Made by a program: the position numbers and the translations under genes. A stretch of DNA of 35,919 bases from an uncultured Lachnospiraceae bacterium (lineage in GTDB: Bacteria; Bacillota; Clostridia; Lachnospirales; Lachnospiraceae). Positions 22,282-26,147 of this stretch are shown piece after piece. The stretch's first letter is position 1, and each line of letters opens with the position of its first letter. The DNA lies in contig CACZPJ010000085.1 of the NCBI GenBank assembly GCA_902782995.1, positions 1-35,919 on the forward strand, written 5' to 3'. Below the pieces are notes generated by a model. The model was not told where the DNA came from. It worked only from the letters and a program-made list of their open reading frames with translations, and did no database searches.

Positions 22282-22659
22282 ATGAAACTAGAAAATGTAA
22301 AAATACTAATCGGGGATGATTCGATTCTTGCACGGAAGCAGTTAAAGGATACGATCGCTGCTTCTTATGATGTGACTTTTGTAGAAGCCGTAAATGGCCA
22401 GGAAGCCATTGATCTTTACAAAGCTGAAAAACCGGATCTTGTTTTTCTGGATATTGTTATGCCGGTCAAGGATGGTATCACAGCCGTTTCCGAGATCATG
22501 CAGGCAGATCCTTCCGCAAATATTATTATGGTATCTTCTGTTGGTACACAGTCCCAGCTTAAAATGGCGATTGAAGCCGGTGCAAAGGACTTCATTCAGA
22601 AACCATTAGATGCCGAACAGTTAAAGGCTGTTATTAACGCACGCTTTGAAGGGAGATAA
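22282..22659 (+). CDS. Single-domain CheY-like response regulator
   Basis: A 125-residue stand-alone receiver without an output domain. The acidic pair is D12-D13, the phospho-acceptor is D57 in FLDIVMP, the Ser switch is at VSS (84-86), and K107 in QKP completes the active site. Such proteins act by binding a partner when phosphorylated. The next gene, five bases downstream, encodes a CheX-like protein that could dephosphorylate it. No kinase gene is adjacent on this strand. GGAGGG precedes the ATG. Confidence 0.93.
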   Translation: MKLENVKILIGDDSILARKQLKDTIAASYDVTFVEAVNGQEAIDLYKAEKPDLVFLDIVMPVKDGITAVSEIMQADPSANIIMVSSVGTQSQLKMAIEAGAKDFIQKPLDAEQLKAVINARFEGR

Positions 22660-22664
22660 AGAAT

Positions 22665-23546
22665 ATGTACACTCAGTTTTTTGGTAATTTTTTGCTTAGC
22701 AAAGGTGTTATCTCTGCTGAAGAGCTTGTAGAAGCCATGAAGAAAAAGGCAGACGTCCATCTGAAGCTTGGAACGATCGCAATCCATGAAGGAATGCTGA
22801 CTGCATCCGAAGTAGATAATATTGTAATTATGCAGACACACGAAGACAAAAAGTTCGGTGAACTGGCAATCGAGCATGGTTATCTGACCGAAGAACAGGT
22901 TCAGGTATTATTAGATAACCAGAAGCCGGATTATCTTCTGCTTGGTCAGATCTTAATCGAGGATGGCAAGCTGACAAACAGTGACTTCGAGAATCTGATC
23001 TCTGACTACCAGTCCCAGACCGAGATCTTCGATCTTGAGGCAGATGTATCCCAGCATGAGATGGTTCATAAACTGTTAGCTGATTTCTGTCAGTTTGATG
23101 ATCCTAAGACCACAGAACATGCAACCGAATATCTGACACTCTTATTCAACAACCTGATCCGTTTCATCGGCAATGACTTTACACTACTTGACCCGATCAG
23201 TTGCAAAGAGTACCCGACCAATTACTGCATCGCGCAGCATATCTCCGGTAAGATTGCAATTCAGGCAGCTATGGATATGGAACCGGAAGCAGCGATCTCT
23301 TTCGCTTCCCGCTATGCACATGAAGCGTTTACCGAATTTGATGAATATGTGAAGGCTTCCTTAGAAGACTTTTTGAATCTTCACAACGGTCTGTTTAATG
23401 TCAATATGTCAAACAGCCGTTCCATCGAGCTTTCACTCTGTCCACCGGAAGCACACAGTAAGGATGTATTAGATTTCCAGAAGACTTCTTACATCTTCCC
23501 TGTTATCTTCCCATTTGGAACCATTCATTTTGTTCTTGCTTTTTAG
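22665..23546 (+). CDS. MshEN-repeat protein fused to a CheX-like phosphatase domain
   Basis: A 293-residue soluble protein. Residues 5-115 hold four 24-residue repeats of the MshEN type (pattern RLGxx, two hydrophobics, xxG, two hydrophobics, then spaced hydrophobics and a final Gln). They start at 5, 34, 63 and 92, an exact period of 29. Repeats 2 and 3 keep a basic first residue (K34, K63) and the final Gln (Q57, Q86). In MshE this domain binds cyclic di-GMP. Residues about 130-293 look like CheC/CheX, with D235-x2-N238-x22-P261 matching the phosphatase motif except that Asp replaces Glu. Five bases separate it from the receiver gene, implying one operon. Function is inferred. Confidence 0.75.
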   Translation: MYTQFFGNFLLSKGVISAEELVEAMKKKADVHLKLGTIAIHEGMLTASEVDNIVIMQTHEDKKFGELAIEHGYLTEEQVQVLLDNQKPDYLLLGQILIEDGKLTNSDFENLISDYQSQTEIFDLEADVSQHEMVHKLLADFCQFDDPKTTEHATEYLTLLFNNLIRFIGNDFTLLDPISCKEYPTNYCIAQHISGKIAIQAAMDMEPEAAISFASRYAHEAFTEFDEYVKASLEDFLNLHNGLFNVNMSNSRSIELSLCPPEAHSKDVLDFQKTSYIFPVIFPFGTIHFVLAF

Positions 23547-25280: not shown

Positions 25281-25309
25281 TTGTGGAAAAGTGAAAAACG
25301 TTTTACACT
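25281..25309 (+). promoter_or_regulatory. Candidate promoter and palindromic operator for the AP2 gene
   Basis: TTGTGG (25281-25286), 17 bases, then TACACT (25304-25309). The near-perfect palindrome GTGAAAAACGTTTTACAC (25291-25308, one mismatched pair) covers the spacer and most of the -10, as expected for repression, perhaps autoregulation by the encoded DNA-binding protein. Confidence 0.4.
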
Positions 25310-25349
25310 GTTTATAGAAACAAAGGATGAATCAGAAAGGAACCATGCG

Positions 25350-26147
25350 ATGCTTGCCGGTGTCTATCTTGCGAAAAAAAAGGATGGAACGATCTACTAC
25401 CGTTCCAATATCACCCATAAAAACAAACACATCAGTCTTGGCAGCTACCCGGATGAAGAGACGGCACATAATGCCTATGTGGAAGCCGGGATCATTCTCT
25501 CCTCTTCCCGTATCCGCATCGATTCCTTTTCCCATGCGCATACACTCTCTTTTGACAAGATCGTAAGTCTTATCAATTTCCGGGACAACGGCATCTATTT
25601 TGGCAATCCGATCTATCTGCATGCGAATTATTTCAGCTATTATCTGTCCATGCATGAGGAGTTAAAGTTCGATATTGATGATCTGTTTTTCTATTCCAGC
25701 CACAAGATCCTGCGTCGTCAGGGGCATCTGTACGTCAATGATTACGGTATGCAGCTTACACTTCTTTCACGCTATGGCATTCATAATTATGCCGTTGCAG
25801 GCAGGGATTACTATTTTGTCAACGGGGATTCTTCTGACCTCCGCTATTCGAATGTCAAGATCGTAAACCGGTACTTTGGTGTAACCGCCTTCGAAAAAAA
25901 GGGCACAATACGATACCGTGTCCAGCTTCATATCAATGGGAATCATACGATCGGCACTTATTCCAGCGAAGAAAAAGCTGCAGTTGCATACAATAAGGCT
26001 GCAGATCTTGCTGTTTCTGCCGGTATCTGCAAAAATTATACACCAAACTATGTAACCGAACTGACCGCCAAAGAGTATGCCGATCTCTATACCAGAATCC
26101 GTATCTCTGCCCGGTTTTTAAACTATCTGGATCGGATTAGCCAGTAA
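25350..26147 (+). CDS. AP2-domain protein with degenerate HNH core
   Basis: A 265-residue putative DNA-binding protein. An AP2-like domain at about 1-48 (GVYLAKKKDGTIYYRSNITH, ISLGSYPDEETAHNAY) and a second at about 177-222 (GVTAFEKKGTIRYR, IGTYSSEEKAAVAYNKA) flank a middle region. That region ends in NGDSSDLRYSNVKIVN (158-173) and resembles the end of an HNH domain of AP2-HNH homing endonucleases. The DH pair expected before the NG turn is Y155-F156 here, so nuclease activity is unlikely. I chose ATG 25350 because AAAGG is nine bases upstream. The TTG at 25281 lies in the promoter region. It stands alone between thrC and leuD. It may be a domesticated homing-endonuclease relative acting as a regulator. 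Confidence 0.7.
   Translation: MLAGVYLAKKKDGTIYYRSNITHKNKHISLGSYPDEETAHNAYVEAGIILSSSRIRIDSFSHAHTLSFDKIVSLINFRDNGIYFGNPIYLHANYFSYYLSMHEELKFDIDDLFFYSSHKILRRQGHLYVNDYGMQLTLLSRYGIHNYAVAGRDYYFVNGDSSDLRYSNVKIVNRYFGVTAFEKKGTIRYRVQLHINGNHTIGTYSSEEKAAVAYNKAADLAVSAGICKNYTPNYVTELTAKEYADLYTRIRISARFLNYLDRISQ

Follow-up and report, generated by a model that had tools for sequence, protein, structure and literature searches.

The locus lies in a window of 35,919 nucleotides, that is, the whole stretch of DNA analysed here, from an uncultured Lachnospiraceae bacterium, and comprises two genes on the forward strand: a lone CheY-type receiver and, after a gap of five bases, a protein in which MshEN-type repeats are fused to a CheX domain (Table 1). 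The initial annotation had read this arrangement from the sequence, and both open reading frames are confirmed. In the Pfam profile search, the receiver scores 88.7 bits against PF00072 (cut-off 30.2), and it carries the residues that mark a CheY-type receiver, namely an acidic pair (D12/D13), the phosphoacceptor Asp (D57), a Ser/Thr (S85), and a Lys (K107). In an alignment of 91 module receivers of relatives, 90 have D12, 89 have D13, 90 have D57, and all 91 have K107. The best match to the module receiver outside the module was, in the four relatives searched, a lone receiver on the CheA contig (45–46% identity), which in three of the four is located between FliG and CheA.

Table 1. Positions of the two genes and their component features in the window
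Feature	Position	Strand	Basis or remark
Lone CheY-type receiver, 125 aa	22282..22659	+	PF00072
MshEN-repeat/CheX fusion protein, 293 aa	22665..23546	+	NF053729, AlphaFold model, Foldseek
Repeat 1 (residues 5–28)	22677..22748	+	Departs from the motif at positions 1 (F) and 24 (K)
Repeat 2 (residues 34–57)	22764..22835	+	Fits the relaxed Wang et al. motif in full
Repeat 3 (residues 63–86)	22851..22922	+	Matches the relaxed motif in full
Repeat 4 (residues 92–115)	22938..23009	+	Departs from the motif at positions 1 (L), 11 (K) and 24 (Y)
Linker helices and CheX domain (residues 125–293)	23037..23543	+	Foldseek; PF13690 in relatives
Catalytic-type motif D235-F-L-N238 (CheX ExxN position), then N241 G242	23367..23378	+	HMMER alignment

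In the window, no Rfam family reaches its gathering score, and the operon thus gave no match to a known riboswitch. The promoter scan was uninformative (6 sites, with 5.7 expected in shuffles); terminator-like sites number 4, with 1.5 expected, and two of them lie on the forward strand downstream of the second gene.

The MshEN-type repeats and the CheX domain

The first 115 residues of the 293-aa protein consist of four 24-residue units separated by 5-residue linkers, with the exact 29-residue period described in the initial annotation. Scored on 11 motif positions, the repeats reach 9, 11, 11, and 8, and their sum of 39 out of 44 was attained by none of 20,000 residue shuffles (shuffle maximum 27), so that an origin of the repeats by chance was rejected; when periods of 20 to 40 were scanned in the real protein, the runner-up to 29 was a period of 24, with a score of 29. 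The MshEN identity proposed for these units stands for the inner repeats and with a reservation for the outer ones: the N-terminus scores 73.4 bits against the NCBIfam profile NF053729 (MshE-related c-di-GMP domain; cut-off 38), and repeats 2 and 3 match the motif fully, whereas repeats 1 and 4 depart from the consensus. Every one of the 57 close homologues matches the same profile (E 1 or less), as do 34 of 35 members of a wider homologue set at E 0.001 or less. The Pfam MshEN profile PF05157, which the initial annotation had named for the search, leaves the protein unmatched at E 10 or less, and its one match in the genome of the window is at another place. FumaraseC_C, DUF4388, holin, and EF-hand were considered as the true identity of the protein and rejected, all of them being below the Pfam cut-offs.

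The AlphaFold model of the protein (pLDDT 89.2, pTM 0.83) contains the expected MshE-like helix pairs, which superpose on MshE with c-di-GMP (5htl_B) at 0.9 Å over 52 columns (Foldseek rank 40, probability 1.00, E 0.98), and repeats 2 and 3 align to MshE 5htl in HMMER at profile positions 32–87 (E 0.00088). Three traits of an MshEN_N domain are found together here, namely two 24-residue motifs with a 5-residue spacer (from residues 34 and 63), the NF053729 match, and the helix-pair fold. Scored by repeat pair, NF053729 gives 41.6 bits for repeats 1 and 2, 41.3 for 3 and 4, and 33.6 for 2 and 3 (cut-off 38); since the profile favors the outer pairings over the central one, repeats 2 and 3 are no more than a candidate binding pair in the window protein.

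The CheX-like nature of the C-terminus, also proposed in the initial annotation, is supported by the fold: Foldseek ranks 1–13 are CheX and CheC-like structures, including the CheX structures 3hm4, 1squ, 3hzh, 6vpw, and 1xko, with target-normalised TM values of 0.72–0.78 (0.73–0.78 for these five) and E down to 1.2e-8. The corresponding profile search is divided, as the window protein remains below the cut-off of PF13690, with no match at E 10 or less for the whole protein and 16.2 bits (E 0.011; cut-off 27) for the C-terminal half alone, but the profile is matched at E 1 or less, with a best value of 8.7e-7, by 52 of the 57 homologues in the alignment. Among isolated C-terminal halves, 13 of 14 match at E 1 or less, with relatives down to 1.9e-11. 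In the HMMER alignment, D235-x-x-N238 is placed on the E-x-x-N of the CheX proteins of Thermotoga (1squ) and Borrelia (3hzh chain B), and D235, N238, N241, and G242 are invariant in all 57 aligned homologues. According to the part of the literature source available (PMC3035606), the inserted Asn of CheX-type phosphatases orients the water, and the acid forms a salt bridge to the receiver Lys. Compared with this catalytic E-x-x-N, the clade of the window keeps both the acid and the Asn, the acid being shortened (Asp for Glu). Among copies with the receiver upstream (upstream-type; three duplicate rows included), all 63 rows reaching the position have Asp as the acid, and of the 30 rows with the receiver downstream or fused, 29 have Glu and 1 has Asp; the Asn is kept in every row that reaches it in both groups. 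In 18 further loci of the phylum, a pattern search gave Glu 13 times and Asp once, with 4 loci unmatched. This distribution suggests Glu as the ancestral and Asp as the derived state.

Receiver pairing across relatives

A genome scan yielded 56 homologues, each immediately preceded by a receiver ORF. When 150 genomes of the family were surveyed, the protein was located in 49 of them, at 52 places, 40 of which were fetched. Once three duplicates were dropped (L092, L096, and L097, whose contigs are the same as those of L010, L050, and L046; they are retained in the residue-row counts), both sources together give 93 distinct relatives, with the window excluded and one N-terminal fragment (L098) included. 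The receiver is encoded directly upstream in 61 of these relatives, downstream in 26 (including L091, where it lies on the same strand at a distance of 190 bp), as a C-terminal fusion in 5, and is lacking in 1, which is the second copy (L090) in a genome (G087) that also has a paired copy (L069). The initial annotation had called for a survey of genome neighbourhoods, and the partnership that it could read only from one locus is considerably strengthened by this conservation (a receiver partner in 92 of the 93 relatives) and by the natural fusions; the pairing is the strongest part of the new evidence. The profile used to recognize the receivers was itself built from the first 57 receivers and is therefore not independent; the Asp and Lys counts serve as a check. 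Among 718 other non-overlapping ORFs of at least 90 aa at the 93 loci, a count whose overlap filter may drop real genes, the only lone receiver is the partner at L091.

The association extends beyond the family. Of 398 genomes surveyed in the phylum, 18 have a match, the window's own included, at 19 places; 18 of these were fetched, and a receiver is adjacent in 17, spanning nine families. The one place without a receiver (L112) is, once more, an additional copy, its genome also having a paired one (L111). Three genomes from a single family (L125–L127) apparently lack the repeats, as judged from the extent of the match and by eye, and keep the CheX-like part and the adjacent receiver. Shared synteny alone was rejected as the cause of the pairing, because the receiver is kept despite the varied neighbourhoods of the downstream-type and fused copies, where 95 nearby genes are unclustered and the largest cluster counted 6. 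The receiver and the MshEN-CheX protein are a conserved module made of known parts. A receiver tree based on few columns and covering 22 of the 61 upstream-type receivers, 16 of the 25 downstream-type ones, and 5 of the 5 fused ones joins the fused with the downstream-type receivers (98/90); with a midpoint root, the CheY of flagellar loci groups with the downstream-type side. The tree is compatible with one recruitment of upstream-type and downstream-type receivers as well as with separate ones.

At the level of whole genomes, the protein co-occurs with components of chemotaxis, motility, and c-di-GMP signalling. In the survey of the family, and with kinship ignored in all three Fisher tests, CheA is present in 47 of the 49 protein-bearing genomes and in 35 of the 101 others (5e-14), FliG in 45 of 49 and 37 of 101 (3e-11), and GGDEF in 49 of 49 and 80 of 101 (2e-4). 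The genome of the window has 16 GGDEF matches and FliG; CheA was not found in its assembly, which is 84% complete, and this genome and G070 are the two that have the protein without CheA.

Candidate function and competing explanations

The interpretation preferred here, and judged somewhat probable, is that of a dedicated module in which a CheX phosphatase, gated by MshEN and probably by c-di-GMP, acts on its own CheY paralogue, catalytic-type residues being present on both sides of the pair. The receiver would be phosphorylated, most likely by the chemotaxis kinase CheA, and dephosphorylated by the CheX domain of the neighbouring protein; the four-repeat domain, most likely upon binding c-di-GMP, would alter either the phosphatase activity or the access of the receiver. 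The level of c-di-GMP would then set how long the receiver remains phosphorylated, with flagellar or chemotactic behaviour as the most likely output. Among the points that weigh against this interpretation are the Asp that replaces the catalytic Glu in the clade of the window, the PF13690 score below the cut-off, and the failure to find CheA in the 84%-complete assembly. A wider form of this proposal, according to which the module is widespread in the Lachnospiraceae and related bacteria as a soluble response-regulator phosphatase switched directly by c-di-GMP via tandem MshEN, acting on its own CheY paralogue and condensed into a single polypeptide in one lineage, is offered more tentatively, as a possibility rather than an expectation.

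The ligand is the point at which the main competing explanation departs, in which CheX is also the phosphatase for the receiver, and the repeats no longer bind c-di-GMP and serve as a protein–protein or dimerisation scaffold or bind another ligand. A pair of full relaxed motifs at a spacing of 29 residues is retained in the window and in 35 of the 93 relatives, all of them upstream-type (35 of 61), and is absent in 58, which comprise 26 upstream-type copies and the 32 downstream, fused, or unpaired ones (one motif match in 27, two at another spacing in 1, none in 4). The divergence of the outer repeats, the family that seems to have dropped the repeats altogether while keeping the receiver and the CheX-like part, and the loss of binding through changed key residues in some MshEN domains, as noted in the available text of Wang et al. 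2016 (PMC5013675), point in the same direction. Repeats 2 and 3, however, mostly keep K/R at motif position 1 and Q at position 24: position 1 of repeat 2 is K/R in 62 of 64 upstream-type rows and K in 28 of 30 downstream or fused rows, the corresponding figures for repeat 3 being 47 of 64 and 29 of 30, and position 24 is Q in 62 of 64 and 30 of 30 rows for repeat 2 and in 60 of 64 and 30 of 30 for repeat 3. Position 21 of repeat 2, which is Asn in 29 of 30 downstream or fused rows, speaks against the preferred interpretation. For PilF, Lys or Leu as the first motif residue is described as compatible with tight binding in the available part of the source (PMC11731258). Given this tolerance and the motif fit of the window protein, its binding of c-di-GMP appears likely on sequence grounds, and that by distant relatives, where motifs are fewer, is predicted with less assurance. 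Together with the exact spacing of the retained motif pairs and the presence of GGDEF in every protein-bearing genome of the survey, the residues kept at positions 1 and 24 argue against a general loss of binding, which is regarded as unlikely.

Two further explanations place the receiver differently. The flow could be reversed, with the phosphorylated receiver as the input to the CheX-like domain and MshEN-CheX as an output that docks on the flagellar switch or a pilus; a receiver without an output domain, natural fusions compatible with an input-receiver protein, and the Asp instead of Glu in the clade of the window would all agree with it. A pure adaptor, however, need not keep an acidic residue and an Asn at the two motif positions, as is the case in all rows that reach them, and a reversed flow is accordingly considered quite improbable. 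The protein might also be an ordinary accessory of chemotaxis, in which CheX acts mainly on the flagellar CheY, the neighbouring receiver is a phosphate sink, and MshEN has only a tuning role. Such a role fits the strong co-occurrence with CheA and FliG and the CheA-linked lone receiver as the closest receiver outside the module in four relatives, but the one-to-one partnership and the fusions point to the neighbouring receiver as the substrate, and a FliG match is absent from 4 of the 49 protein-bearing genomes; this last explanation is thought very improbable.

Relation to known systems and further genes at the loci

With the c-di-GMP receptors of pilus and secretion ATPases (the MshEN domain of MshE and PilF GSPII-B), the window protein shares the 24-residue motif, the 5-residue spacer, and the helix-pair fold, and it differs from them in having four serial motifs instead of two, with the outer ones diverged, no ATPase, and binding that is predicted. 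With CheX of the CheC/CheX/FliY phosphatases (Thermotoga, Borrelia), it has in common the fold and the acid-x-x-Asn at the catalytic position, but it is fused to a sensor-type domain, carries Asp for Glu in the clade of the window, and has a dedicated receiver as neighbour. In CckA, the phosphatase state is favored by c-di-GMP, and dephosphorylation in a phosphorelay is likewise promoted by this messenger; CckA is, in contrast, a histidine kinase/phosphatase with neither the CheX fold nor an MshEN domain.

The initial annotation knew of no described system with this layout. For the receiver module this agrees with the PubMed Central literature as far as its text was available (including PMC8789113), in which no report was found, subscription papers and preprints lying outside this scope, but the association of MshEN with CheX had been named in 2016. 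In the available text of Wang et al. (PMC5013675), one sentence associates MshEN with CheX, REC, and CheA domains, and an involvement of c-di-GMP in varied regulation is suggested; the same two domain types are thus mentioned there, and this text contains no receiver partner, REC fusion, or experiment. The combination of these known parts was found unstudied in the PubMed Central literature. If the preferred interpretation is correct, the module would be a small, experimentally accessible connection between c-di-GMP and a CheY-type signal in the Lachnospiraceae, a family that includes the motile gut anaerobes Roseburia and Agathobacter, records of both being among the module loci. A second messenger could then directly reset a chemotaxis-type signal, with second-messenger and phosphorelay signalling joined in a pair of genes or, in one lineage, within a single polypeptide; in the natural MshEN-CheX-REC fusions, ligand binding and receiver dephosphorylation would be measurable together in a single protein.

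In 3 loci among the 30 with a downstream or fused receiver (L061, L077, and L078), a divergent GGDEF-matching gene directly adjoins the module on its upstream side, which hints at a local source of c-di-GMP. Two tandem receiver-bearing proteins of 266–275 aa, Spo0A-like by eye, are encoded upstream of the module at L066 and L078. Elsewhere in the genome of the window (G000:C37:15210-15626), two weak CheX-family matches below the cut-off fall in one 217-aa frame, perhaps a CheC. The genes that flank upstream-type copies are syntenic and either metabolic or unrelated, and therefore say little about function. One of the genes in the window, at 25281–26147 on the forward strand, encodes a 288-aa protein without a Pfam match at E 0.001, with repeats that look AP2-like, and a member of the same cluster is present in 47 of the 64 upstream-type loci, duplicates included.
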